A stretch of 64,000 nt of DNA from assembly GCA_937872925.1 (NCBI GenBank), contig CALMUT010000103.1:1-64000 (forward strand), read 5' to 3'. The notes under the pieces were generated by a model that was not told the origin of the DNA, did no database searches, and saw only the letters and a program-made list of their open reading frames with translations. Numbering within the stretch: position 1 is the stretch's first letter; each line of letters opens with the position of its first letter. The translations under genes and the position numbers were made by a program. The DNA comes from an uncultured Myxococcales bacterium. GTDB taxonomy: Bacteria; Myxococcota_A; Polyangia; Polyangiales; Polyangiaceae. Positions 50,408 through 63,395 of this stretch are shown in pieces.

Positions 50408-51457
50408 TCACACCGGCAGCTGCGAGGACCGCGAGAAGAGATAGTGCCCCACGAGCCATTCGTCACCGCCGCGATAACCCCACAGCTCCTCGCAAGCCAT
50501 GAAGAAGATCCGCCAGCGCTGTATCCAGCGCTCCGCCTCCAGCTCAGGGTAGACCCCGCGAAAGACGTCACGCACCTGGTCGCGGCGGGCGTCCAGATTG
50601 GAAAGCCACATGCTTGCAGTGCGCGCGTAGTGCCGCCCGCTGACCGCCCAGCGGCGCTCGAGCTGCCACCTGCTCTGGAAGTGCAGCAAGTAATCAAAGG
50701 ACGGCATCGAGCCGCCCGTGAAAAAGTGGCGCCCCATCCAGTTGTCGTCCCCTTCGGCCTCGAACGCGTAAGCGAAACGTCGATGGCAGAAAATGTGAAA
50801 AAAGCACTTCCCGCTTGGCTGCAAATGCGCGGCTAACTTGCGAAACAGGTGGTCGTGGTTCTTGACGTGCTCCAGCATCTCGACGCTGACGATGCGGTCA
50901 AAGTTCCCGTCGAGGCGCAACTGATTTACATCGCAGGTGACGACTTCGAGTCGGTCGGCCACGCAGAGCTCCCGCGCTCTCGCCAGGATGTACTCCCGCT
51001 GGCTGTGCGAATTCGAAACAGCCACCACCTGAACGGCAGGGAAGCGCTGCAGCAAGAAGAGTGTGAAGGAACCCCAGCCACAGCCAAGGTCCAAAACGCG
51101 CATGCCATCACGGACCTCCGCACGCTCCGCAGTCAGATCCAGCATGGCGCGTTCAGCGTCTGCCAGGGTGTGCACGCCAGGCGGGAACAGCGCGGAGCTG
51201 TACTTGAGATGGGGCCCGAGCACGCTGCGGAAGAACGCAGCAGGCACCTCGTAGTGCTGGGCGTTGGCGGCTGCGGGGGACTCCGCAATGGGAGACCGGG
51301 CGGCCCGGGCAAGGAAAGCTTGCAGTCGGCGCTGCTGTGCTTCGACGCCGCCGCGGGCCTCGTCCCGCAGTCGCCGATCGTTCAGCTGGCGGATCCCCAA
51401 ACGGATCAGCAGGTCGGGCAGTTTGCCGGTCTCGGCGAGTTCTAGGGGGCCCCTCAT
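50408..51457 (-). CDS. SAM-dependent methyltransferase, cyclopropane-fatty-acid-synthase-like (second)
   Basis: 349 aa from the ATG at 51455-51457. The SAM motif VLDLGCGWGSFTLFLLQRF opens a Rossmann fold; YSSALFPPGVHTLADAERAML matches the region near the substrate pocket of CFA-family enzymes. The C-terminal part has several aromatic residues (WLSNLDARRDQVRDVFRGVY, WRIFFMACEELWGYRGG). It lacks the long N-terminal domain of typical CFA synthase. Its start overlaps the DUF1295 stop by 4 bases. It is the last of six overlapping lipid-modification genes, so the substrate is probably an unsaturated fatty acyl chain. Confidence 0.88.
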   Translation of the reverse strand: MRGPLELAETGKLPDLLIRLGIRQLNDRRLRDEARGGVEAQQRRLQAFLARAARSPIAESPAAANAQHYEVPAAFFRSVLGPHLKYSSALFPPGVHTLADAERAMLDLTAERAEVRDGMRVLDLGCGWGSFTLFLLQRFPAVQVVAVSNSHSQREYILARARELCVADRLEVVTCDVNQLRLDGNFDRIVSVEMLEHVKNHDHLFRKLAAHLQPSGKCFFHIFCHRRFAYAFEAEGDDNWMGRHFFTGGSMPSFDYLLHFQSRWQLERRWAVSGRHYARTASMWLSNLDARRDQVRDVFRGVYPELEAERWIQRWRIFFMACEELWGYRGGDEWLVGHYLFSRSSQLPV

Positions 51458-52308
51458 TCTGGCGCCTCCGTAGCCGGCTCTGCTTCGCTGGCTTCCCTCG
51501 CCGCTAACTGCAGCTTCGCCGCGTTCCCCTCGCGCACGAACCAGGGCACAAACACGCTGGTGCTGCCCTGGTACTCGGCGTAGTCGGCTCCTCGGGAGCG
51601 CAGCGCCTGGGCTTCGGTGGCGGGGATGCCGGTCACTTTGAAAAGAAACAGCAGCATCAGCCCGGGACCTAGGAAACTGAGCGCGAAGTACGGACTGCCC
51701 ACAGCGCAGAGCACCCAAGCCCACCATCCGAGCCACTCAAAGAAGTAGTTGGGGTGGCGGCTGTAGCGCCACAGTCCAGTGCGACAGGTCTTGCCGCGGG
51801 CGTCGGGGCGCGCGCGAAAGGCCGCAAGCTGAGCGTCCGCCAGGGACTCGCCGGCCACGGACACAAGCGTCACGCCAGCGGCGAGTAGCTCGAAACCGCG
51901 GATCGATTGGCCAGAGTTGGCGATGGCGACCCAGATCGGAAGGCTGAACAGAAGCGCGAGGGCGGCCTGCAGCTGGAACACGACGAAGAACTGCAGTGAG
52001 TTTTGCTCGCCCCATTTCTCTCGCAACGCGCGGTAGCGGCCGTCCTCGTTCTTACCGATCACTCGGTTCTTGAGCAGGTAACCCGCGAGGCGAAAGGCCC
52101 ACAGCGCAGCCATGCCGCTGACCCATGCGCGTCGAGCGAGGTCCCCCGGAGTCGCCCAGGCGTAGAACAGCGCAAGCACGCCGATTGCCCCGGACCAGGC
52201 GACGTCGACGTGGCTGGCGTCTTTGCGCAGGCGCTCCACGACGAAGAGCAGAGAAAAGGCGATGAACAGCCCAAGCGCCGCCCACCCAAAGACCCACGTC
52301 GCGTTCAC
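51454..52308 (-). CDS. DUF1295 membrane protein (steroid 5-alpha-reductase/ICMT-like)
   Basis: 284 aa with about six or seven membrane helices. The C-terminal half has LWRYSRHPNYFFEWLGWW, the nucleotide-binding signature shared with isoprenylcysteine methyltransferases and 5-alpha-reductases. DUF1295 proteins are thought to be NADPH-dependent reductases or methyltransferases on lipids. The gene overlaps neighbours at both ends by 4 bases (52305-52308 with DUF2878, 51454-51457 with the methyltransferase), as in other bacterial copies of this lipid operon. Confidence 0.9.
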   Translation of the reverse strand: MNATWVFGWAALGLFIAFSLLFVVERLRKDASHVDVAWSGAIGVLALFYAWATPGDLARRAWVSGMAALWAFRLAGYLLKNRVIGKNEDGRYRALREKWGEQNSLQFFVVFQLQAALALLFSLPIWVAIANSGQSIRGFELLAAGVTLVSVAGESLADAQLAAFRARPDARGKTCRTGLWRYSRHPNYFFEWLGWWAWVLCAVGSPYFALSFLGPGLMLLFLFKVTGIPATEAQALRSRGADYAEYQGSTSVFVPWFVREGNAAKLQLAAREASEAEPATEAPE

Positions 52309-52847
52309 GCGGCGACCTGAGCGTCAACGTCTGGGCCGGCGCCAGCACGATGCAACCAACTGCTGAGGGCGATGAGCCCTGGCGTTGCCGCAGCCCAGCC
52401 GCCGACGAGCAGCACATAAGCCCGTGGGTCCAAGACTGAGAGCGCCCCGAGACGCTGCCCAGAGGCGTAGGCGATGGGTCCGAAGACCGCGCCCAGCAGC
52501 GCAGCGAGCAGCCGTCGCCGCGCCAGCCAGGCCAGCGCCGGCGCAAGAGTGGTCGCAAATCCGGCCCAGAGCGCGAGGATCCAACTGGGAGCCAGCCAAG
52601 CCGGCCCTGGGTGTGCTTGGTAGCGCACCCACCCCGTGCCCCCAAGCCCGCCGTCCAGGATCAGTGCAACGCAAAGCGCTGCCAGGATCGAGAGCAGTTC
52701 CGCGCGCAGATCCGGGGTCGTCTTCAAAGCCAGCGCAACCAAAAGAGCGCCGCTCGCCGGCCCGAGCAACGGCTCGCCCTTTGCGGCACCTAAGACCGCC
52801 GCAAACCAAACACCTTGAAACAACACGAAGGAGAGCCATGCGCTCAT
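52305..52847 (-). CDS. DUF2878 membrane protein
   Basis: 180 aa with about five predicted membrane helices and very few charged residues. The start (LSFVLFQGVWFAAVLGAAKG) and the loop KTTPDLRAELLSILAALCVALILDG match the DUF2878 family, which I know from CFA-synthase operons; no biochemical activity is established. The 4-base overlaps with both the CFA gene (52844-52847) and DUF1295 (52305-52308) argue for a membrane-bound member of one pathway. Confidence 0.88.
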   Translation of the reverse strand: MSAWLSFVLFQGVWFAAVLGAAKGEPLLGPASGALLVALALKTTPDLRAELLSILAALCVALILDGGLGGTGWVRYQAHPGPAWLAPSWILALWAGFATTLAPALAWLARRRLLAALLGAVFGPIAYASGQRLGALSVLDPRAYVLLVGGWAAATPGLIALSSWLHRAGAGPDVDAQVAA

Positions 52848-54142
52848 TTCGCAACAGCCTCCCCGGGCAACTTTGGCAAGGGCAACAGCTGCGGCAAAGC
52901 GCGCGCGCCCGGTCGCGCGAAGACGAGCTGCAGGTCACCCAAATAGCGCTCCCAGAACGCCGCCTCGCAGTACGAAAGATAAACCTCCCACATGCGGCAG
53001 AACGCGTCGGAGTGCCCCAGGGCGCGAACCTGCGCGCGCTGCTCGTCGAAGCGCTGGTGCCACGCGCGGAGCGTCATTGCGTAGTGCAGCGTGATGTCCT
53101 CGAGTTGCACTAGTCGCAAGTCGCTGGCACGGGTTGCGCTCGTCGCCAGCGCGGTGAGACTCGGGATACAGCTCCCGGGAAAGATGTAGCGCTTGACGAA
53201 GTCCACGTCGTCCTTGGCGGATTCGTAGCGCTGGTCTTCAATCGTAATGCTCTGGATCAGCGCCAGCCCATCGGGCTTGAGCAACCGCGCCAGCTGCGCA
53301 AAGTAGGTATCGTAATGGCGATGGCCTACGGCCTCGACCATTTCGATGCTGACGACTTTGTCGTAGTTCCCTCTGAGCTCACGATAGTCTGCGCACAACA
53401 CTTGGATCTGGTCGCCGAGCCCAGCGGCGTCGACCCGCTCGCGCACGTATGCAAATTGCTGCCGACTGAGAGTCGTGGTGGTGACCCGGGCTCCATATGC
53501 CTGGGCAGCGTGCAGGGCGAGGGATCCCCAGCCGCTGCCGATCTCCAGCAGATGCTGTCCCGGCGCGAGGCCCAGCTTGGCGCAGACTCGAGCATTCTTC
53601 GCGCGACTTGCCTGCTCCAGGGTCATGTCGCTGCGCTCGAAAATCGCCGCGGAATAGGACAGTGTGGGATCGAGCCACAACGCGTAAAACTCGTTGCCGA
53701 GATCGTAGTGCGCCTCGATGTTCGTGCGGCTGCCCTGGAGGGTATTCTCCCGAAGCGCGTGAAAGAGCCGCAGCGCCGGTTGGGCAAGGCGCGCCATGCG
53801 ACCGTCCAATGCTTGGACCACCTTGCGCTCTCGCAGTAGCAAGCGCACCAATCCGACCAGGTCGTCGCAAGTCACGCTGCCCCGCACGTAGCTTTCGCCG
53901 AAGCCAACGGTTCCGCGCAGAGCCACGTCGGCCCACACGCTTGGCTCGTGCACCGTGAGCTGCGCCTCTGCTCCTTCGCCGATACCGAGGCGCCAGCTGC
54001 CAGCTGGCTCGGAAACGACGAGGCAGCCACCCTCGAGCTTCGACAGCGCGGAAAGCACGAGCCGACGTGCAACGCCTGAAAGCAACGTATCGGGACGCGC
54101 TGCGCTCGGGTTCGCCGTGAGCTGCAGTGTGGTCTCCTTCAA
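52844..54142 (-). CDS. cfa: Cyclopropane-fatty-acyl-phospholipid synthase-like methyltransferase
   Basis: 432 aa from a TTG at 54140-54142, whose TTGA overlaps the DUF1365 stop by 4 bases and has GGGAG 7 bases upstream. The N-terminal domain (about 20-120) and the SAM-binding domain (LLEIGSGWGSLALHAAQAYGARV) are complete. The YDLGNEFYALWLDP motif is as expected, but the active-site Cys of E. coli CFA synthase (YSCA) is Ala here (TLSYSAAIF); many relatives have YSSA. Later motifs VSIEMVEAVGHRHYDTYF and YIFPGSCIPSL are conserved. The substrate is probably an unsaturated phospholipid chain. The frame reaches 54379 inside DUF1365 and was trimmed. Confidence 0.9.
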   Translation of the reverse strand: MKETTLQLTANPSAARPDTLLSGVARRLVLSALSKLEGGCLVVSEPAGSWRLGIGEGAEAQLTVHEPSVWADVALRGTVGFGESYVRGSVTCDDLVGLVRLLLRERKVVQALDGRMARLAQPALRLFHALRENTLQGSRTNIEAHYDLGNEFYALWLDPTLSYSAAIFERSDMTLEQASRAKNARVCAKLGLAPGQHLLEIGSGWGSLALHAAQAYGARVTTTTLSRQQFAYVRERVDAAGLGDQIQVLCADYRELRGNYDKVVSIEMVEAVGHRHYDTYFAQLARLLKPDGLALIQSITIEDQRYESAKDDVDFVKRYIFPGSCIPSLTALATSATRASDLRLVQLEDITLHYAMTLRAWHQRFDEQRAQVRALGHSDAFCRMWEVYLSYCEAAFWERYLGDLQLVFARPGARALPQLLPLPKLPGEAVAK

Positions 54143-55008
54143 GGGACAGCTCCCGGCGACGGGGAGTGCGGGGCGACGGACCCGGACGGCGTAGCCCTCG
54201 TCCCGCTGGCGGTCGGCGCTGTCGGCGCCGTTGACGGTCGGCGCGCCGACCCCGGATGCGCGTAAAAGGGCACGCCTTTGAGCCAGAGTCGCAGCGCGTT
54301 CCAATAGATCGCGCCGAACACTTTGGCGGCGACGACGGGCGTCACCGCAACCCGCCGCGCCAATCCGCGCCGGGACCAAGGCGCGCGCCGCAGCGAAAGC
54401 GTGGCGTCGAAAACGACGCGCTGTTCCTCCAGGGACTGCATGTGGATCACGAGGCCACGCCCGGGCTCGGTGAAACGCCAGCGATAGCGCTGCTGCATGG
54501 GCATGAAGGGTGAGACGTGAAATGCCTTGTCGAACTCGAAACAGAGCGCATCGTCCTGGCTGCCGCGCTCCAGCACATACAGATGGCGCTCACCCCAAGG
54601 GGTATTGTCCACTTCCGCCACGATGCTCTGCACACGCTGATCTTCGGCGTCGTAGACGAAATAGAAGCTCACCGGATTGAAGACAAAGCCAAAGCAGCGC
54701 AGGTGTGTCAGTACGCGGATCGGTCCGGCCGGACGCTTTCCGGTTTGCTCCTGAACTACCGTGCGAAGCGCAGCGTCCAGACTCCGCACCGCCCGCGTAG
54801 CGCCATGTGCCGCGCTCGCAAGGTGATCCGCAACCCGGAACCAAACCAATGCGGGTCGTCGCGCCGAAGCCAGAGGCCAAGGCTCCAGCAAGGCCTCCAC
54901 TTCGCTCAAGTCGAGGTATGGCTGGAAGATGCGGTAGCGCAAATCGTGGGGGCGCGGAGAGAAGCGCCGGTGTCGCACCCACCCGTCGTAGAGCGCGCTT
55001 CTCGTCAT
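54139..55008 (-). CDS. DUF1365 protein
   Basis: 289 aa from the ATG at 55006-55008, which overlaps the FAD-gene stop by 4 bases (ATGA). DUF1365 proteins occur almost only beside the FAD-oxidoreductase and CFA-synthase-like genes, and their role in lipid modification is unproven. Seen: LYDGWVRHRRFSPRPHDLRYRIF near the start, and LRCFGFVFNPVSFYFVYD and EVDNTPWGERHLYVLE in the middle. The C-terminal 35 residues (about 255-289) are a low-complexity Pro/Ser/Thr tail, longer than I would expect. Confidence 0.9.
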   Translation of the reverse strand: MTRSALYDGWVRHRRFSPRPHDLRYRIFQPYLDLSEVEALLEPWPLASARRPALVWFRVADHLASAAHGATRAVRSLDAALRTVVQEQTGKRPAGPIRVLTHLRCFGFVFNPVSFYFVYDAEDQRVQSIVAEVDNTPWGERHLYVLERGSQDDALCFEFDKAFHVSPFMPMQQRYRWRFTEPGRGLVIHMQSLEEQRVVFDATLSLRRAPWSRRGLARRVAVTPVVAAKVFGAIYWNALRLWLKGVPFYAHPGSARRPSTAPTAPTASGTRATPSGSVAPHSPSPGAVP

Positions 55009-56252
55009 GCTAGCCACTTCCCGAACCGCCGCGCGACGCGCAGCGCGCTACGCACGCCGTCTTCGTGAAATCCATTGAACCAGTACGCCCCGGCAAAGTG
55101 CGTGCGGTCGATGCCACTGATCTCTTCAAAACGTGCTTGGGCACGCACGGCCTCCTTGGAGTAGACCGGGTGTTGGTACACCATACGGCGGAGCACCAGG
55201 GTCGGATCGATCCGGTCGCTGCGGTTGAGCGTGACGCAGAGCGTCGCCGGAGCGACGAGGCCTTGCAACAAATTCATGTTGTAGGTGACGGCCACGGGCC
55301 CGCTGCGGCGACCATCCACGTGATAGTTCCATGCCGCCCACGCCTTGCGGCGTCGGGGTAGCAGGCGCTCGTCGGTATGCAGCACCGCTTCATTGTCTTG
55401 ATACGGCATCGCGGACAGGATTTCGCGTTCGGCTGCGCTTGGCGTTTCGAGCAACGAAAGGGCCTGGTCGCTATGGCAGGCGAAAACCACTTGGTCCGCT
55501 TCGGCCGTGTGGCCGTCCGCGAGCAACACGCGCACGCCACGCGCGCTGCGCTGCACACGCCTGACCGGGGTGCCGGTGAAGACCCGCTGCCGAAACGGCG
55601 CCGCAAGCGGCTCAACATAGGCCCGCGAGCCGCCGACGATGGTACGCCAAACGGGCTGGTCGAAGGCGCTCAGCATGGCGTGATTGTCGAAGAACCGGAT
55701 GAAGAAAGCTGCGGGCCCCTCCAGCACACGTTCCTGCCCTGACGACCAGATCGCCGCAGCCATGGGCAGAATGAACCGATCTCGAAACGCGGATCCGTAT
55801 CCCTCCGCGCTGAGCAGCTCGCCCAAACTCACGTCGCTGGGCAGACGCGCAAGGGCACGCCGCGCGGTGCGACCAAAGCGCAGAATTTCGTACACCATCC
55901 GATAGTGGGCCGGAGAGAGCAGCAGGCGGCGATCCGCAAAGAATCCGTGAAAGTCCGTTGCCGCGTACTCGAATCCCGAGCGTTCGTCTCGCACGCCAAA
56001 ACTCATGTTGCTCGCGCGTGAAGCAACGCCCAAATGCTCCAGCAGGCGCGTGAAGCGCGGGTAGGTCCAGGTATTGAAGACAATGAAGCCCGTATCGACC
56101 GCAAGCTCGCTTCCCGCAACGACCACGTCGTGGGTGTGGGTATGTCCGCCGACGTGGTCCCCGGCTTCGAACACCGTGATTTCGTGTTCCGGCGCCAACA
56201 AGTGGGCGCAAACGAGCCCGGCGATGCCCGAACCGACGATGATCACCCGCAT
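55005..56252 (-). CDS. FAD-dependent amine-oxidase-like oxidoreductase
   Basis: 415 aa. The dinucleotide-binding fold is at the N-terminus (MRVIIVGSGIAGLVCAHLL) with the GDHVGGHTHTHDV second signature. NTWTYPRFTRLLEHLGV and DTGFIVFN are typical of the protoporphyrinogen-oxidase-like group found with DUF1365 and CFA synthase genes. It may desaturate or oxidise an acyl chain; not shown. First gene of a six-gene overlapping operon. The 113-base upstream region carries a weak copy of the CGATCC-N16-CGTA-type motif. Confidence 0.9.
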   Translation of the reverse strand: MRVIIVGSGIAGLVCAHLLAPEHEITVFEAGDHVGGHTHTHDVVVAGSELAVDTGFIVFNTWTYPRFTRLLEHLGVASRASNMSFGVRDERSGFEYAATDFHGFFADRRLLLSPAHYRMVYEILRFGRTARRALARLPSDVSLGELLSAEGYGSAFRDRFILPMAAAIWSSGQERVLEGPAAFFIRFFDNHAMLSAFDQPVWRTIVGGSRAYVEPLAAPFRQRVFTGTPVRRVQRSARGVRVLLADGHTAEADQVVFACHSDQALSLLETPSAAEREILSAMPYQDNEAVLHTDERLLPRRRKAWAAWNYHVDGRRSGPVAVTYNMNLLQGLVAPATLCVTLNRSDRIDPTLVLRRMVYQHPVYSKEAVRAQARFEEISGIDRTHFAGAYWFNGFHEDGVRSALRVARRFGKWLA

Positions 56253-56365: not shown

Positions 56366-57544
56366 TTGCCCCGCGCCCTGGCCTTCTTCCTATTTTTTGC
56401 GGTTGCGCTCAGTTTGGTCGGGGGCGTGCATTACTACATTTGGGCGCGCCTGGTCCGGGACCTCGCCCTGCCGGCGTGGGCGCACCGTGGGCTGACGCTG
56501 CTCGTCGTCGTGCTGTGCTTGAGCGTTCCCCTCACCTTCTGGCTCGGGCGTCGCCTGCCCCTCGACAACACTCGGCCGTTCATGCTCGTCGCCTTCGGCT
56601 GGCTGGGAATGGTGTTCTTGCTGCTTGTGTTGCTTGGCATGAGCGAGGTTGTGCGCACGGCACTTTCGCTGGCGACCCGCCTGGTTTCCGATGCACCTCC
56701 AGAGGATCCGGAGCGGCGCTTGGCGCTGTCGCGCATCTTTGGCGCGTCCGTCGCGCTCCTCGCCGGCGGCCTTGGCGTGGCCGCAACCTATCAAGGCCTT
56801 GGCCGCTTCGTGGTCAAGCAGGTTTCCGTCGCTCTTGCTCGTTTCCCGAAAACGCTGAGCGGATTCACCATCGTGCAGATCAGCGATGTGCACGTCGGAG
56901 CGACGATTCGCAAAGAATTCATCGACAGCATTGTTGACCGGGTGAACGCCCTCGAACCCGATCTGATCGCCATCACTGGGGATTTGGTGGACGGCTCCGT
57001 TGCCCAACTCGCCGAACACGTGGCACCGCTCGCTCGCCTGCGCGCGCCCCACGGCGTGTACTTCGTCACCGGCAACCACGAGTACTATTCAGGCGTCGAG
57101 GCCTGGTGCGCAGAACTGCAACGGCTCGGCATCACGGTCTTGCAGAACGAGCGCGTGCAAATCGGTACGGGCTCCGACAGCTTCGACTTGGCGGGGGTCG
57201 ATGACTACAGCGCGGGACGGTTTGGAACGGGCCCGAGCCTGGAGCGCGCGCTGCAAGGGCGGGATCAGAGCCGCGAAGTCGTGCTCTTGGCGCACCAGCC
57301 GCGTGCAGTCTTTGAAGCCAGCGAGGCCGGAGTCGGACTGCAGCTATCTGGGCACACCCACGGCGGACAGATTTGGCCGTGGAACTTCTTCGTCCGGCTG
57401 CAGCAGCCCGTGGTCAGCGGGCTCGAGCGCGTCGGGCAAACCCTGGTCTACGTCAGCAACGGCACGGGCTATTGGGGACCGCCGATGCGACTGGGCGCGC
57501 CCGCGGAGATCACGCGATTGGTGCTGTCGGCCAGCTCCGGATAG
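56366..57544 (+). CDS. Membrane metallophosphoesterase (YaeI-like)
   Basis: 392 aa from a TTG at 56366. The first approximately 150 residues carry about four membrane helices. The calcineurin-like catalytic domain follows with SDVHVGATI, GDLVDG, GNHEYY and GHTHGGQIWPW, providing the two-metal ligands. Relatives such as YaeI act on lipid or nucleotide phosphoesters. It is divergent from the FAD oxidoreductase gene and its last 76 bases overlap, tail to tail, the FAD dehydrogenase gene at 57469. Confidence 0.9.
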   Translation: MPRALAFFLFFAVALSLVGGVHYYIWARLVRDLALPAWAHRGLTLLVVVLCLSVPLTFWLGRRLPLDNTRPFMLVAFGWLGMVFLLLVLLGMSEVVRTALSLATRLVSDAPPEDPERRLALSRIFGASVALLAGGLGVAATYQGLGRFVVKQVSVALARFPKTLSGFTIVQISDVHVGATIRKEFIDSIVDRVNALEPDLIAITGDLVDGSVAQLAEHVAPLARLRAPHGVYFVTGNHEYYSGVEAWCAELQRLGITVLQNERVQIGTGSDSFDLAGVDDYSAGRFGTGPSLERALQGRDQSREVVLLAHQPRAVFEASEAGVGLQLSGHTHGGQIWPWNFFVRLQQPVVSGLERVGQTLVYVSNGTGYWGPPMRLGAPAEITRLVLSASSG

Positions 57545-59103
57545 CTAGCCGCGATCCCTTGAGCCACTCGGATCCCATCCACGGCGGCGCTCACGATGCC
57601 GCCCGCGTAGCCAGCTCCCTCGCCAGCCGGATACAGACCGGCCAGTTCCAGGGACTGCAAGCTCTCTCCGTCGCGCGGCACGCGCACCGGCGCGCTGGTA
57701 CGCGACTCCGTCGCCACAAGTACGGCTTCTTCGGTAACAAAACCGCGCATGCGCCGGTCAAAGAATCGAAGCGCGTCCCGCAAGCGCTCCGCGAGGGGCA
57801 AACCCGACACGTCAAGCACCTCGGCGATGTTTCCGGCGCTGAGGCCCGGGCGATAGCTGCTTGCGGGCACGCTGCTCGAGCCGCGTTTTTCCAGGAAGTC
57901 GCTGACACGAGTGGCTGGCGCGCGTAGCGCGCCGCCGCCTGCGGCGAACGCCGCCGCCTCGACGCTGCGCTGCAATGCCACGCCGGCTAGCGCATCGAAT
58001 TGCCCCAACCCCGCGAGATCTTCCAGCTCGATGCTAGCGACGATGCCGGAGTTCGCATACGGAGAATCTCGGCGGGATAGGCTCATCCCGTTGACGACCA
58101 GTCCGGCTGTCTCCGTGGGTGCCCGCACGATGAAGGCTCCCGGGCACATGCAGAAAGAGAACACGCCCCGGCCTGCCTGAGTCTGCGCCAGCCGGTAGCT
58201 GGCGGCGGGCAGCTTCGGGTGTCCCGCCGCCTGGCCGTACTGGATGCGGTTGATCAGCGGTTGAGGATGTTCGACGCGCACGCCCAGCGCAAAGGGCTTG
58301 GCTTCCAACCGCTGGCCTGCGCGACGCAGCAGCGCGAAGACATCCCGAGCCGAATGACCCGTCGCGATCACGACCACAACAGCCGAAAGGCTCGTGCCAT
58401 CCGCCAGCTGCACGCCGACGACAGAGCGACCGTCCGGGCTGCGCAGCAGCTCCGTCACTCGAGCTCCGAAGCGAAACTCGACGCCCACGCCCTCGAGTCG
58501 GGTGCGCAACGCCGTGACCACTTCAGGCAGGCGATTGCTACCGATGTGAGGACGCGCCTCCGTCAAAACCGCCGCGGGAGCCCCGTGCGCCGCCAATACC
58601 TCGAGCACGTCGCGGACGTTGCCGCGCTTGTGAGATCGCGTGTACAGCTTGCCGTCGCTGTAGGTGCCCGCGCCACCCTCACCGAAACAGTAGTTGCTGT
58701 TCGGGTCCACCTGTCCGCGGACGTTGAGGCCCTTAAGGTCCTTGCGCCGGGGCTGCACGGGTTTGCCGCGATCGACAACGATGCTGGCCACGCCGCGGCG
58801 CGCAAGTTCATAGGCACAGAACAAACCGGCGGGACCGTCTCCAACGATAACGACCCGCGCCGGCCCGCGCACTTCCCTGGGCGCGGCTCCACCGATTTCG
58901 CGATCGTGCTGCACGGCACCGACGGTGACCAAGAAGCGCACGCGCCCGCGCCGCGCGTCCAGGGACCGCTTCTTGATCTCCAGCTGGGGTAGGTCCGCGG
59001 GGCTGCGCTGCAGGCGCGCGGACACGGCACGTGCTAAGGCCTCGGCGTCGTCAGCATCATCCAACCCAAGCTCGATCTGTACGTCTTCGAGCGGATCCAC
59101 CAT
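57469..59103 (-). CDS. FAD-dependent dehydrogenase (COG2509-like)
   Basis: 544 aa. The N-terminal 75 residues (EDVQIELGLDDADD...) precede an FAD fold VVIVGDGPAGLFCAYELARRG. The motifs VDPNSNYCFGEGGAGTYSDGKLYTR, RPHIGSNRLPEVV and YPAGEGAGYAGGIVSAAVDG match the uncharacterised 'FAD-dependent protein/NAD(FAD)-utilising dehydrogenase' group. Substrate unknown. Its 3' end overlaps the metallophosphoesterase gene by 76 bases on the opposite strand; the overlapping residues are a non-conserved tail. Start is at 59101-59103, 52 bases from the sigma promoter motif on the other strand. Confidence 0.88.
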   Translation of the reverse strand: MVDPLEDVQIELGLDDADDAEALARAVSARLQRSPADLPQLEIKKRSLDARRGRVRFLVTVGAVQHDREIGGAAPREVRGPARVVIVGDGPAGLFCAYELARRGVASIVVDRGKPVQPRRKDLKGLNVRGQVDPNSNYCFGEGGAGTYSDGKLYTRSHKRGNVRDVLEVLAAHGAPAAVLTEARPHIGSNRLPEVVTALRTRLEGVGVEFRFGARVTELLRSPDGRSVVGVQLADGTSLSAVVVVIATGHSARDVFALLRRAGQRLEAKPFALGVRVEHPQPLINRIQYGQAAGHPKLPAASYRLAQTQAGRGVFSFCMCPGAFIVRAPTETAGLVVNGMSLSRRDSPYANSGIVASIELEDLAGLGQFDALAGVALQRSVEAAAFAAGGGALRAPATRVSDFLEKRGSSSVPASSYRPGLSAGNIAEVLDVSGLPLAERLRDALRFFDRRMRGFVTEEAVLVATESRTSAPVRVPRDGESLQSLELAGLYPAGEGAGYAGGIVSAAVDGIRVAQGIAASYPELADSTNRVISAGAPSRIGGPQ

Positions 59104-59154: not shown

Positions 59155-59180
59155 CGATCCGTTTCGGCGCCTGATTCGTA
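59155..59180 (+). promoter_or_regulatory. Probable ECF promoter of the sigma factor gene
   Basis: CGATCC (59155-59160), 16 bases, CGTA (59177-59180). Exactly the same bipartite element, with the same spacing, occurs before the DUF4331 gene at 60491. The layout resembles what I recall of promoters read by RpoE/ChrR-class (ECF11) sigma factors (TGATCC ... CGTA). Predicted start is about 7 bases downstream, leaving a leader of roughly 78 bases. It would make the operon autoregulated. Confidence 0.5.
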
Positions 59181-59264
59181 CAAAACTTCGTGTTGCTCTC
59201 CTGCTCTGGGACTGACCCTCGGTCGCCGCTTCCGGTCTTGCATGGAGCCTGGTACTTTCGCCTC

Positions 59265-59843
59265 GTGAATCGCGCTGCGCTTGCCAACGCTTCCCGCGCT
59301 GAAGACGCCGAACTCGTCGGCCGGTTGGTGCGCGGCGATCAAAGCGCCCTCGGAGTCCTCTACGACGCCTACTCGGCCGCGGTTTTTGGCGTGGTTCGTC
59401 GCATCGTGCGCACGGCTGCGGAAGCCGAGGATATTTGTCATGACGTGTTCGTCGAAGCCTGGCGGCGCGCGGGCGACTACGATCCCGGGCGGGGCTCCGT
59501 GCGCACGTGGCTGGTGCTGCGTGCGCGCAGCCGCGCCCTCGATCACGTCAAGAGCGCAGCGGTGAGTCGCACAGATGCGCTGACGGAGCTACCGCGTTCC
59601 GACGATTCTCCGGATTCGGCCATGGCCCGCGCCAGCGACAGTGCGCGGGTGGTGCACGCGCTGTCAGCGCTACCCGACGAGCAGCGCAATGTGTTGCTCA
59701 TGGGCTACTTCCAAGGTCTTTCTTCGACGGAAATCGCAGCCGCCATGGGCACCCCGGTCGGCACCGTCAAATCCCGGGTTGCCTCCGCACTCGCCCGGTT
59801 GCGACGCGCCCTGGCCGAACCCGAGCGGGAGGGATCGCAATGA
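59265..59843 (+). CDS. ECF RNA polymerase sigma factor (RpoE/ChrR class)
   Basis: 192 aa from a GTG at 59265. Region 2 is at about 15-90 (YSAAVFGVVRRIVRTAAEAED, DVFVEAWRRAGDYDPGRGS, TWLVLRARSRALDHVKS) and region 4 at about 120-180 (LPDEQRNVLLMGYFQGLSSTEIAAAMGTPVGTVKSRV). The linker between is short, as in group ECF sigmas. It overlaps the anti-sigma gene by 4 bases. The GTG has GGAG only 17 bases upstream; an 8-codon ORF (59242-59268) ends across the start codon, and might feed ribosomes to it. Control is expected through its own promoter motif and the cupin protein. Confidence 0.88.
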   Translation: MNRAALANASRAEDAELVGRLVRGDQSALGVLYDAYSAAVFGVVRRIVRTAAEAEDICHDVFVEAWRRAGDYDPGRGSVRTWLVLRARSRALDHVKSAAVSRTDALTELPRSDDSPDSAMARASDSARVVHALSALPDEQRNVLLMGYFQGLSSTEIAAAMGTPVGTVKSRVASALARLRRALAEPEREGSQ

Positions 59844-60433
59844 ACGAGCCGAAGGACCTCGTTCCACAGTTTCTGGTGGACGCGCTTGCCGACTCGGAAG
59901 ACCCAAGCGCCGACGCCTACGAGCTCGCGGGTGCGCTGAGCCACGGGTTCGAGCAGCGGCCGCCGAGTGCGCTGCGGGCGCGGCTTCTGGAAACCGTGTC
60001 CCGCCGCGACGAGCGGTACGCGCCGTTCTGGCAGCGCCTTGGGGAGATGTTCGACCTGCCTCTCGACAAGATGCGGCGTGTACTGGCGGACCTGCACAGC
60101 CCGGAGCGTTGGCAGCCAGCGCCAATCCCTGGGGTCAGCCTGCTGCACTTTGCCGGCGGCCCCCAGGTCGCAGCGGCGGACTGTGGGCTTGTCCGACTCG
60201 CGCCGGGCACCCCCTTTCCAGAGCACTCGCATCTGGGCCGGGAGCTGGTGCTGGTACTGGCTGGCGGCTATAGCGAGGATACCGGCAAAATTTTCGCACC
60301 GGGCGATGCGCACGAGATGCTGCCGGGCACGGCGCATTCTTTGCGGGCAGATGCCGAACACGGCTGCCTTTTCGCGGTCTTGCTGAGTGCGGGCATCGAA
60401 ATTCAGGGCGTTGGGCGCCTCGGCGGGACTTAA
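59840..60433 (+). CDS. ChrR-type cupin anti-sigma factor
   Basis: 197 aa from the ATG at 59840, overlapping the sigma gene by 4 bases. The C-terminal cupin (about 95-195) retains the metal-site pattern HSHLGRE (H129, H131, E135) and H166 of the ChrR cupin. The N-terminal half is helical, but has none of the His/Cys ligands of the zinc anti-sigma domain of ChrR, so either it binds sigma without zinc or it is a different module. In Rhodobacter, ChrR holds the sigma factor until singlet oxygen is sensed; that role here is inferred from family and position. It precedes the DUF4331 genes. Confidence 0.82.
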   Translation: MNEPKDLVPQFLVDALADSEDPSADAYELAGALSHGFEQRPPSALRARLLETVSRRDERYAPFWQRLGEMFDLPLDKMRRVLADLHSPERWQPAPIPGVSLLHFAGGPQVAAADCGLVRLAPGTPFPEHSHLGRELVLVLAGGYSEDTGKIFAPGDAHEMLPGTAHSLRADAEHGCLFAVLLSAGIEIQGVGRLGGT

Positions 60434-60490
60434 TTTCCGTCAAGGTTACGCGACGTTACACGCAAACTTCGCGCGCTGCCCTAGGCACTT

Positions 60491-60516
60491 CGATCCGCCC
60501 GGGTTACAGCCTCGTA
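60491..60516 (+). promoter_or_regulatory. Probable ECF promoter of the DUF4331 operon
   Basis: CGATCC (60491-60496), 16 bases, CGTA (60513-60516), identical in both boxes and spacing to the motif before the sigma gene at 59155. Predicted start lies near 60523, giving a 69-base leader with the GGAGGG ribosome-binding site at 60581-60586. Two identical 10-base-plus-spacing matches upstream of adjacent genes in one window make chance less likely. Confidence 0.5.
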
Positions 60517-60591: not shown

Positions 60592-61227
60592 ATGCGTAAC
60601 CAATGGTGGCTCGCCTTAGGCGTGCCGGCAGCGCTCGGCGCTGGTCTCCTGTTCGTGGGCTCGCGCAGCAATGCTGCCGATCACCTCGACGCCCCCGGAG
60701 CGATAGCCGACCCCGCAGCCGACATCAATGATCTGTACGTCTTTCGCAGCAAAGACACCGCCGCCGGCACAACCGAGCGCACCGTGTTCGTGATGACCGT
60801 CAATCCGCTTGCAACCGCGGCGACGCGCTTCAGCGACAAGGTCGACTACGAATTCCGGATCTCGGACAAGGACACACCCGCGACGACCTTCACCATCAAG
60901 TGCACGGCCACCGCGGACGCCACCCAAAAGGTGACCTGCGCCATCGGCAGTGACACGAAGACCGTGGACTTCGACGCTGTCGAAGCCGGGGATGCCGCAA
61001 ACGACAACATCCGTGTCTTTGCCGGATTGCGTGACGATCCGTTCTTCATCGATCTGCCAGAAGTGCAAGACACGCTGAAGACGGGCAAACCCGACAAGAT
61101 GATTGACGGCACCGGCGTCGACTTTCTCGCGGGCAAGAACGTCCTCACCCTCGTGGTTGACTTGAAGAACTCTGTGTTCGGCTCGTCCACCAAACTCAAG
61201 GTCCACGCCGTCACCGTGCGGAAGTGA
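60592..61227 (+). CDS. DUF4331 protein, N-terminal-half type
   Basis: 211 aa from the ATG at 60592, with GGAGGG 5 bases before. A signal peptide (WWLALGVPAALGAGLLFVG, cut near NAA) is followed by DHLDAPGAIADPAADINDLYVF and VFVMTVNPLATA, then AGLRDDPFFIDLPE and NVLTLVVDLK. These are the opening and middle motifs of DUF4331 proteins, but the usual closing part (RMGRPAVN... FPYLAPPH) is absent and instead encoded in the next gene. Exported, function unknown. Its stop lies 11 bases before the second gene's ATG. Confidence 0.82.
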   Translation: MRNQWWLALGVPAALGAGLLFVGSRSNAADHLDAPGAIADPAADINDLYVFRSKDTAAGTTERTVFVMTVNPLATAATRFSDKVDYEFRISDKDTPATTFTIKCTATADATQKVTCAIGSDTKTVDFDAVEAGDAANDNIRVFAGLRDDPFFIDLPEVQDTLKTGKPDKMIDGTGVDFLAGKNVLTLVVDLKNSVFGSSTKLKVHAVTVRK

Positions 61228-61238
61228 GGAGTACGAAC

Positions 61239-61925
61239 ATGAGAAAACTACTCACAGTAGCCCTCTGCGGCTTGCTCAGCAGCACGATGATCATTGCCTG
61301 CGGCAGTGACGACGACGACAAGAAAGCGGCCACGGGCGGAACCGGCGGCGGCGGAACCGGCGGCGGCGGAACCGGCGGCGCAACGGGCGGCACCGCTGGC
61401 TCAACGGGCGGCACCGCTGGCTCAACGGGCGGCACGGCTGGCTCAACGGGCGGCACCGCTGGTTCTGGCGGCGCGCTACCCACGGGTCAAATCGACCGCA
61501 TGGGACGTCCCGCGATCAGCACAGCGCTCATCGCTGCCGCCAACAAGGACAGCTACAACCAGGCCGCGCCCGCGGCGTGGGCGGGCTTCGCCACGGAAAT
61601 CGAAACGTCTCTCGACACCATCGACGGCCTCGACGGTGACAAGACCAACGGTCTCTTGGCGGCGACTCGTAGCGTGCTGGCCGGAGTCGTAGCGGACGAC
61701 CAGCTGCAGATCGACATCAGTGTAGCCGACTGCGACGGCGCGTACCTGGGCCTAGAGCTTGGCGTACCAGCCAAATGCGGCGGACGCACCCTCGCCCAAG
61801 ACGTGGTCGACACCACGTTGCAGTCCCTGGTGGACGCCACAGGCACGACCAAAGTCAGCGACGACGCCGGACCGAACGACAAACCGTTCACCGACGCCTT
61901 CCCCTACTTGGCCGCTCCACACTGA
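61239..61925 (+). CDS. DUF4331 C-terminal-half lipoprotein with Gly/Thr linker
   Basis: 228 aa from the ATG at 61239, with GAGGAG upstream. The lipoprotein signal (LLSSTMIIAC) leads to a linker of GGTGG and GGTAGST repeats (about 30-85). The rest, from IDRMGRPAISTALI through GGRTLAQDVVDTTLQSLV to NDKPFTDAFPYLAAPH, matches the C-terminal part of DUF4331 proteins. With the upstream gene it makes a whole DUF4331 split in two, the second half anchored to a membrane. Possibly the two associate. Confidence 0.82.
   Translation: MRKLLTVALCGLLSSTMIIACGSDDDDKKAATGGTGGGGTGGGGTGGATGGTAGSTGGTAGSTGGTAGSTGGTAGSGGALPTGQIDRMGRPAISTALIAAANKDSYNQAAPAAWAGFATEIETSLDTIDGLDGDKTNGLLAATRSVLAGVVADDQLQIDISVADCDGAYLGLELGVPAKCGGRTLAQDVVDTTLQSLVDATGTTKVSDDAGPNDKPFTDAFPYLAAPH
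61326..61466. repeat. 9-bp and 21-bp in-frame repeats in DUF4331 C-terminal gene
   Basis: First a run of GGCGGCGGAACC-like 9-15-bp units, then about three and a half copies of a 21-bp unit (GGCGGCACCGCTGGCTCAACG) encoding GGTAGST. All are multiples of three. The lipoproteins at 1-307, 48063-49400 and 49439-50368 have similar but shorter linkers. Confidence 0.8.
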
Positions 61926-62003: not shown

Positions 62004-63395
62004 ATGAGACCGAGCCTATGCATTGCCGTTCTGCTCAGCGCGTCGGCATGTGCGAAGAACGACGCACCCACCGCATCCCTAAGCGCCTCGGCGAGCGCCA
62101 GGGCGAAAAGCGCCCCAGCGACAGCCTCCGCGGTGGTAACGGCCGAAGCGAAGCCTTCCCCGCAGGCGCTGTTGCAACGCCCGCGTTCCCAAGACGAACT
62201 GGGAACCACTCATGCCCGCATCTTCATGGGCAACCTGAGGGGCTCTGTCGCCGCGGCGAAAGAGGGCTGGGAAAAGGACAAGCCCGCAGCCACCGCAGCG
62301 CTGCTGTACGCGACGCCGCTTTCCACTGCCGCCAAGATCTCTGGGGACCTCGAGCAATTCGGCGAGGCCTTGCGCGTCGTAGAAGCCGCCCTGAAGAAGG
62401 AGCCCGAACACGAAAAGCTTCTCCTCCTTCAGGCCGAGTTGCTCTCGAGTCTGCACCGCTTCGACAAAGCCGCCACAGTGGCAACCAAGCTGCACGCGCG
62501 GGCGCCGTCTGACGCGACGCGGGTGTTGCTCGCGGACGTGGCGTGGAATCGCGGAGACTACGAAACCGCGATCAAGGAAGTCCGCGCCATCGCCACGGAG
62601 AAACCGTCGCTTTTTAGTCAGGTGCGTCTAGCCCAGTTGGAGCTGTCCTTGGGCAACTTGCAAGCGGCCAAAGATGCCTTCGCCCGCGCGGAGACGCTGT
62701 ACCGAGACGTATCGCCGGTCCCCATTGCGTGGTTGAACGTGCAGCGGGGCCTCATGGGGCTACACACGGGACAGTGGGAGGACGCCGAAGGATTTTATCG
62801 CGAAGCTGTGACGCGCATGCCTGACTACCCCATGGCCGTCGAGCACCTCGCGGAGGTCGAGGCGCTCCTTGGCAAACGCGAAGAAGCGGTCCGGCGCTAC
62901 AAAGGCGTCGTTGAAGCAACGGACAATCCGGAATTGATCGGTGCCCTGGCGGGTCTGCTGGCGGAATTTGGCCAGAAGGAAGAAGCCGAACGGCAGGTGG
63001 TGCACGCAAAGAAGCGCTTCGGTGACCTGCTCAAACGCTACCCCGAGGCCATGGCGGGGCACGCGGCGGACTTCTTTCTGAATGAGGGTGATGACAAGAA
63101 GCAGGCGCTATCGCTTTTGGAACGCAACTTCAAGCTGCGCCCCAACGCCGAAGCCCGGGCGGCCCTGGCCCACGCCAAGTTGGAAAACGGTGATTTGAAA
63201 GGCGCAGCAAAGCTCGCGGATGAAGCGCTCGCCACGCCCGTGAAGAAGGCCGAGATCTACTGGATTGGAGCGCGGATCCGTCTGGCAGAAGGCCGCGCTG
63301 AAGACGCCAAGTCCTTGGAGTCGAAGGCCAAAGCACTGAATCCAAAGATCGAGCAGCTCGAAGGGCCCCTAGCGACGCCTGGGGAAGCGAAGTAA
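62004..63395 (+). CDS. TPR-repeat lipoprotein
   Basis: 463 aa from the ATG at 62004. The signal ends in a lipobox (LLSASAC). An Ala/Ser-rich linker is followed by about ten TPR-like helical pairs (about 70-440; for example GDLEQFGEALRVVEAALKKEP, NRGDYETAIKEVRAIATEKP, TGQWEDAEGFYREAVTRMP). No catalytic motif. Located in the periplasm or outer membrane, it may scaffold the DUF4331 proteins, which it follows directly, separated by a terminator. Confidence 0.85.
   Translation: MRPSLCIAVLLSASACAKNDAPTASLSASASARAKSAPATASAVVTAEAKPSPQALLQRPRSQDELGTTHARIFMGNLRGSVAAAKEGWEKDKPAATAALLYATPLSTAAKISGDLEQFGEALRVVEAALKKEPEHEKLLLLQAELLSSLHRFDKAATVATKLHARAPSDATRVLLADVAWNRGDYETAIKEVRAIATEKPSLFSQVRLAQLELSLGNLQAAKDAFARAETLYRDVSPVPIAWLNVQRGLMGLHTGQWEDAEGFYREAVTRMPDYPMAVEHLAEVEALLGKREEAVRRYKGVVEATDNPELIGALAGLLAEFGQKEEAERQVVHAKKRFGDLLKRYPEAMAGHAADFFLNEGDDKKQALSLLERNFKLRPNAEARAALAHAKLENGDLKGAAKLADEALATPVKKAEIYWIGARIRLAEGRAEDAKSLESKAKALNPKIEQLEGPLATPGEAK

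Follow-up and report, generated by a model that had tools for sequence, protein, structure and literature searches.

The best explanation for two identical CGATCC-N16-CGTA motifs in the 64,000-nucleotide stretch of DNA analyzed here (the window) is, very probably, that both act as promoters recognized by an ECF sigma factor whose gene lies between the two and which would be held by a ChrR-like protein and freed via that protein's cupin metal site. The finding is real, and stronger than was stated in the earlier note in which the motifs were reported. Its basis in the sequence is the motif itself, its spacing and orientation, its conservation, the order of the genes, the absence of a zinc motif from the anti-sigma protein, and the retention of that protein's cupin ligands. 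The result provides a testable regulon for a ChrR-type sigma beyond the Pseudomonadota; in the lineage concerned, the anti-sigma is devoid of the zinc site on which inhibition depends in Rhodobacter. It also gives a clue, through regulation, to the DUF4331 family, whose function is not known. Features of the window are summarized in Table 1.

Table 1. Genes and motif sites of the window, in order of position.
Feature	Position	Strand	Remarks
Second CMAS-family methyltransferase	50408..51736	-	
DUF1295 gene	51454..52308	-	
DUF2878 gene	52305..52847	-	
Cyclopropane/methylating fatty acid synthase (CMAS)	52844..54379	-	
DUF1365 gene	54139..55017	-	
Flavin-containing amine oxidase (RSP_1091 type)	55005..56252	-	Core-regulon gene list in PMC5507510
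Third exact motif, possible internal promoter	55184..55209	-	Inside amine oxidase gene, ~167 nt before DUF1365 start
FAD-dependent oxidoreductase-like gene, divergent from sigma gene	57469..59103	-	Synteny kept in G124, G216
Predicted ECF promoter of sigma/ChrR operon	59155..59180	+	-35 CGATCCG, 16-base spacer, -10 CGTA; orthologue conservation
ECF sigma factor gene	59265..59843	+	GTG start; Sigma70_r2, Sigma70_r4_2
One-mismatch look-alike in sigma gene	59480..59505	+	Arises from coding motif YDPxRGxVRT
ChrR-like anti-sigma gene	59840..60433	+	Cupin_7; overlaps sigma stop
Predicted ECF promoter of DUF4331 operon	60491..60516	+	Like-type site before other DUF4331 genes
DUF4331 N-terminal half, separate gene, probably secreted	60592..61227	+	ATG after GGAGGGAATTC
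DUF4331 C-terminal half, separate lipoprotein-like gene	61239..61925	+	Profile positions 252-421
TPR protein, third gene of DUF4331N-DUF4331C-TPR set	62004..63395	+	

Exact matches to the motif lie at 59155-59180 (CGATCCGTTTCGGCGCCTGATTCGTA) and 60491-60516 (CGATCCGCCCGGGTTACAGCCTCGTA), in gaps between genes of 161 bp on the sigma side and 158 bp on the DUF4331 side. Measured from the end of CGTA, 84 nt separate the first from the sigma GTG (59265) and 75 nt the second from the DUF4331 ATG (60592), in agreement with the approximately 80 and 70 bases given earlier; the same boxes, the 16-base spacing, and the shared G and C flanks that had been described are likewise all present. A base-composition model predicts 0.0004 matches in those 319 bp, for a pattern chosen after both sites were known. 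One further exact match in the window lies on the reverse strand within the amine oxidase gene, and a matrix built from orthologous sites (see below) reaches its full score in the 64 kb only at these three places (59155, 60491, and 55184). One-mismatch matches in the window were set aside as background. The candidate at 59480-59505 was rejected as a promoter, since the sigma coding motif YDPxRGxVRT produces its sequence; because this coding motif yields look-alikes inside sigma genes, motif counts call for caution.

ChrR-like homologues are present in 129 of the 290 genomes of the class. For 38 ChrR-like pairs with an upstream sigma gene, the 320 bp before the estimated sigma start were searched, and YGATC-N17-CGTA occurs upstream in 22 of these polyangial pairs, compared to 0.07 expected under a first-order Markov model and none for the reversed control. 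With the stricter YGATCC box, 21 regions have a spacer of 16, and no other length between 10 and 23 is seen in more than one region. These orthologous sites begin with C in 16 cases and with T in 5. The shared flanks fared unequally as a feature: a purine follows CGATCC at all 21 sites (G at 15), but C follows CGTA at only 8 of 21 and is thus not conserved. With 22 of 38 orthologous sigma genes preceded by the motif at fixed spacing, coincidence is excluded for the sigma promoter. The comparison with orthologues proposed in the earlier note therefore finds the boxes and the 16-base spacer kept, and this upstream conservation supports the self-regulated module of ECF sigma and cupin anti-sigma that it had suggested. 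The motif is absent upstream of the other 16 sigma genes. One subgroup of sigma/ChrR pairs (L057, L064, L066, L070, L071, L075, and L077) has no upstream motif and an anti-sigma N-terminus like DVRELLPLYALGVLEADE, and for ChrR-like cupins identified by profile matches in three genomes (G297, G308, and G264) no adjoining sigma gene was detected.

The resemblance to RpoE/ChrR promoters, previously noted, agrees with published work. TGATCC-N16-CGTA is the ECF11 promoter of PSPTO_1043 of P. syringae, as determined by ChIP-seq and qRT-PCR (PMC5507510), and promoters of the same form with mapped start sites belong to RpoE2 of S. oneidensis (PMC4336711). As a positive control, named ECF11/ChrR loci on alphaproteobacterial and Variovorax plasmids mostly carry the boxes and spacing before sigma, and many have them before the divergent gene as well. 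The window module shares with the ECF11 sigma-E/ChrR systems (Rhodobacter sphaeroides; PSPTO_1043; RpoE2) overlapping genes for sigma and cupin anti-sigma, an autoregulatory promoter YGATCC-N16-CGTA, the cupin metal ligands, and adjoining amine oxidase-DUF1365-CFA genes. It differs in that the polyangial promoter mostly has C for T at its first base, the polyangial anti-sigma lacks HxxxCxxC, the sigma falls outside the ECF11 clade in our tree (although their union was not rejected), and the predicted polyangial targets include DUF4331, hemerythrin, haemoglobin-like, and bufferin-like genes.

The nearest PDB chains to the 192-aa sigma factor are SigK (the top match, 89.6 bits) and R. sphaeroides RpoE (85 bits), which are about equal. 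In a tree of 48 sigma factors, the polyangial proteins fall into one group and the ECF11 references into another (99/99 each), with the former nearer to SigK and Bacillota sigmas at moderate support; a clade uniting the two was not rejected by an AU test (p 0.296). The ECF19-type SigK/RskA system is also represented by sigma/RskA_C pairs that adjoin DUF4331 operons in Pseudoalteromonas and Croceicoccus, together with GCATCC-N16-CGTA. Unlike RskA, the window anti-sigma is a cupin protein, and it has no RskA_C match. It matches the ChrR cupin family (Cupin_7, 33 bits; PDB 3o14), and H129, H131, E135, and H166, invariant in 11 sequences, correspond to the four metal ligands of ChrR, which have been described for R. 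sphaeroides (PMC6852236). HxxxCxxC, the ZAS zinc motif, is absent from the window protein and from 36 of 40 polyangial relatives; the zinc site of R. sphaeroides ChrR is required for inhibition (PMC6852236), and anti-sigma domains without zinc exist in other groups (PMC7406223). The N-terminus of the anti-sigma is poorly conserved, and a structure predicted from two sequences had low confidence (mean pLDDT 50). The module probably works like sigma-E/ChrR and is best regarded as ECF11-like in its working and only possibly a member of that group: one defining feature of ECF11 (HxxxCxxC) is missing, and the sigma does not group with ECF11 in the tree, although a joint clade was not rejected.

From these features we infer the pairing of sigma factor and promoter, inhibition by the ChrR-like protein, and signal release at the cupin metal site. 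The ChrR-like protein, encoded in the same operon in an overlapping frame, would hold the sigma factor inactive until a stress signal, sensed at the cupin metal site, releases it. Together with RNA polymerase, the released sigma would then start transcription at the CGATCC-N16-CGTA before its own operon, giving positive feedback in which the inhibitor is made in step, and would also start the DUF4331N-DUF4331C-TPR operon. Elsewhere in the same genome, it would most likely drive a hemerythrin gene, a truncated-haemoglobin-like lipoprotein gene, and a bufferin-like (MNIO) operon. By analogy, the signal may be singlet oxygen or peroxide; the predicted targets hemerythrin, haemoglobin-like protein, and bufferin-like chelator possibly point to metal or oxygen stress.

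What was least expected is how widely DUF4331 is associated with putative ECF-type promoters. The split DUF4331N-DUF4331C-TPR set recurs in many genomes of the family, and the motif precedes 4 of the 24 split loci, at 90-153 nt from the estimated start. ATCC-N16-CGTA occurs in 12 of the 62 regions upstream of DUF4331 that were compared from beyond the window, whether split, full-length, or plasmid-borne, and 0.12 would be expected; control patterns with other spacers or altered boxes gave 0-1, except for the -35 variants ATCT (4) and AACC (3). These sites occur in Polyangiaceae and Pseudomonadota, some of them adjoining sigma/anti-sigma pairs. In G264 (L165 9067-9988), an ECF11-type sigma gene and the start of a ChrR-like gene are divergent from a split DUF4331 operon, with TGATCC-N16-CGTA between the sigma gene and DUF4331. 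GCATCC-N16-CGTA precedes DUF4331 in both Pseudoalteromonas sp. CF6-2, with the order sigma, RskA_C anti-sigma, DUF4331, Ig-like protein, TPR protein, HupE, and Croceicoccus marinus, with the order split DUF4331, TPR, HupE, sigma, RskA_C anti-sigma. DUF4331 thus turns out to be a recurring predicted target of ECF-type sigma factors, with ECF-type promoter sequences far more common than chance. The proposal that the DUF4331 operon is the nearest target of the window sigma is supported by like motifs before DUF4331 genes elsewhere, but it is not the only likely target nearby, the divergent furan-fatty-acid-type operon being another candidate. A search of 5.39 million open papers returned no mention of DUF4331 by that name, and no relevant paper linking RskA with CCATCC. 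As a side observation, the operons adjoining sigma/RskA_C pairs at L377 and L383 (Pseudoalteromonas, Croceicoccus) are of the form DUF4331-TPR-HupE/UreJ.

That other sigma factors are found beside DUF4331 also bears on how the window site is read. Its promoter could be real but normally read by another ECF sigma of similar specificity, the adjacency being incidental, which we consider improbable. Such a situation must hold in G255, where a DUF4331 site is present and a ChrR homologue was not found, so that another sigma has to read it there; the ECF11-type neighbor of DUF4331 in G264, the sigma factors with RskA-type anti-sigma and GCATCC-N16-CGTA in Pseudoalteromonas and Croceicoccus, and a genome of the same genus without any DUF4331 match (G124) point the same way. 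In the window, however, the boxes and spacing before DUF4331 are identical to those of the autoregulatory site and the genes are adjacent, and an ECF11-type query found no sigma elsewhere in the genome closer than the window sigma. We rate at about even the chance that a broader, two-part proposition is correct: that DUF4331 (often with TPR and HupE/UreJ) would be a conserved output of ChrR-cupin, ECF11, and RskA-type ECF sigmas sharing ATCC-N16-CGTA, from Polyangiaceae to alpha- and gammaproteobacteria, and that the ChrR-like sensor of Polyangia would have lost the zinc anti-sigma motif and would control oxygen-, haem-, and metal-related proteins.

Operator sites bound by a repressor or activator, instead of -35 and -10 elements, are a highly unlikely reading of the boxes. 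Sequence alone cannot fully separate an operator from a promoter, but neither box is the inverted repeat of the other. Promoters fit what is seen here: an asymmetric arrangement, a spacer of 16 bases, one orientation only, toward genes, and the same sequence as mapped ECF11 promoters (PMC5507510, PMC4336711).

The genome to which the window belongs (G000; 9.39 Mb in 377 contigs) was scanned by pattern search, and contains 21 exact matches to CGATCC-N16-CGTA, vs. 7 for the reversed pattern and approximately 21 predicted from base composition. According to a simple codon-usage gene finder, 16 of these are inside genes and 5 in gaps. With the total at chance level and most matches within genes, single matches prove little and the count itself is no evidence; position and conservation across species are. 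As to whether matches fall upstream of genes, which the earlier note had asked, all five intergenic matches point at a start codon. The genes behind them are sigma/ChrR, DUF4331, a truncated-haemoglobin-like lipoprotein, a hemerythrin, and a bufferin-like operon. Three of the five sites recur in same-genus G124 (Polyangiaceae bacterium ACE_MYX3), namely those before the sigma/ChrR, hemerythrin, and bufferin-like orthologues. The TGATCC form has 14 matches in G000, 13 within genes; the remaining one is intergenic and more than 350 nt from any gene start. Coincidence of the two window motifs in GC-rich DNA, the least likely reading of all, would accommodate the chance-level genome total, but is refuted for the sigma promoter by the orthologues and contradicted by fixed-spacing conservation before hemerythrin, bufferin-like, and DUF4331 genes.

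Hemerythrin and bufferin-like genes are better conserved predicted targets within the genus than DUF4331. The hemerythrin belongs to Pfam PF01814, and its homologues have the motif at most 50 nt from the start in 7 genomes from several families, compared to none for the reversed pattern. In the bufferin-like operon, the gene for a small Cys-rich protein comes before that for an MNIO enzyme (PF05114, 347 bits), and 5 of 30 such operons have the motif. Caulobacter sigma-F is an ECF sigma known to control bufferin (DUF2282-DUF692) operons (PMC3511200); its regulon resembles the predicted one in this target, but its promoter is GTAACC-N16-CGAA and its anti-sigma the membrane protein DUF1109, unlike in the window module. 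In the bufferin-like loci L019 and L129, a Cys-rich precursor ending in CKxxGGCNAHCPK is accompanied by an MNIO enzyme, with the motif approximately 190 nt before the precursor gene. The lipoprotein has no Pfam match, and its domain matches group 1 truncated haemoglobins in the PDB (E 4.4e-5). Its gene is located at L004 1501-2234 (reverse complement), with an exact motif just upstream.

The operon at 50408-56252 on the reverse strand, not mentioned in the earlier note, is of the ECF11 core-regulon, furan-fatty-acid type. The ECF11 core regulon comprises amine oxidase, DUF1365, CFA synthase, and photolyase (PMC5507510), and among its genes are those for making furan fatty acids, which ChrR turnover requires (PMC6852236, PMC5507510). 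A search for a promoter site ahead of the leading gene in the divergent amine oxidase operon found none. The third exact match of the window, inside the amine oxidase gene, is absent in more distant homologues. It lies at the same place in G124 (L128), with the GAT and CGT codons and the next A kept; the residue after CGT changes from Met to Thr between the species, and the retention of CGTA despite this change suggests a possible internal promoter. In G143 (L220), a site is found at -37 of the amine oxidase gene.
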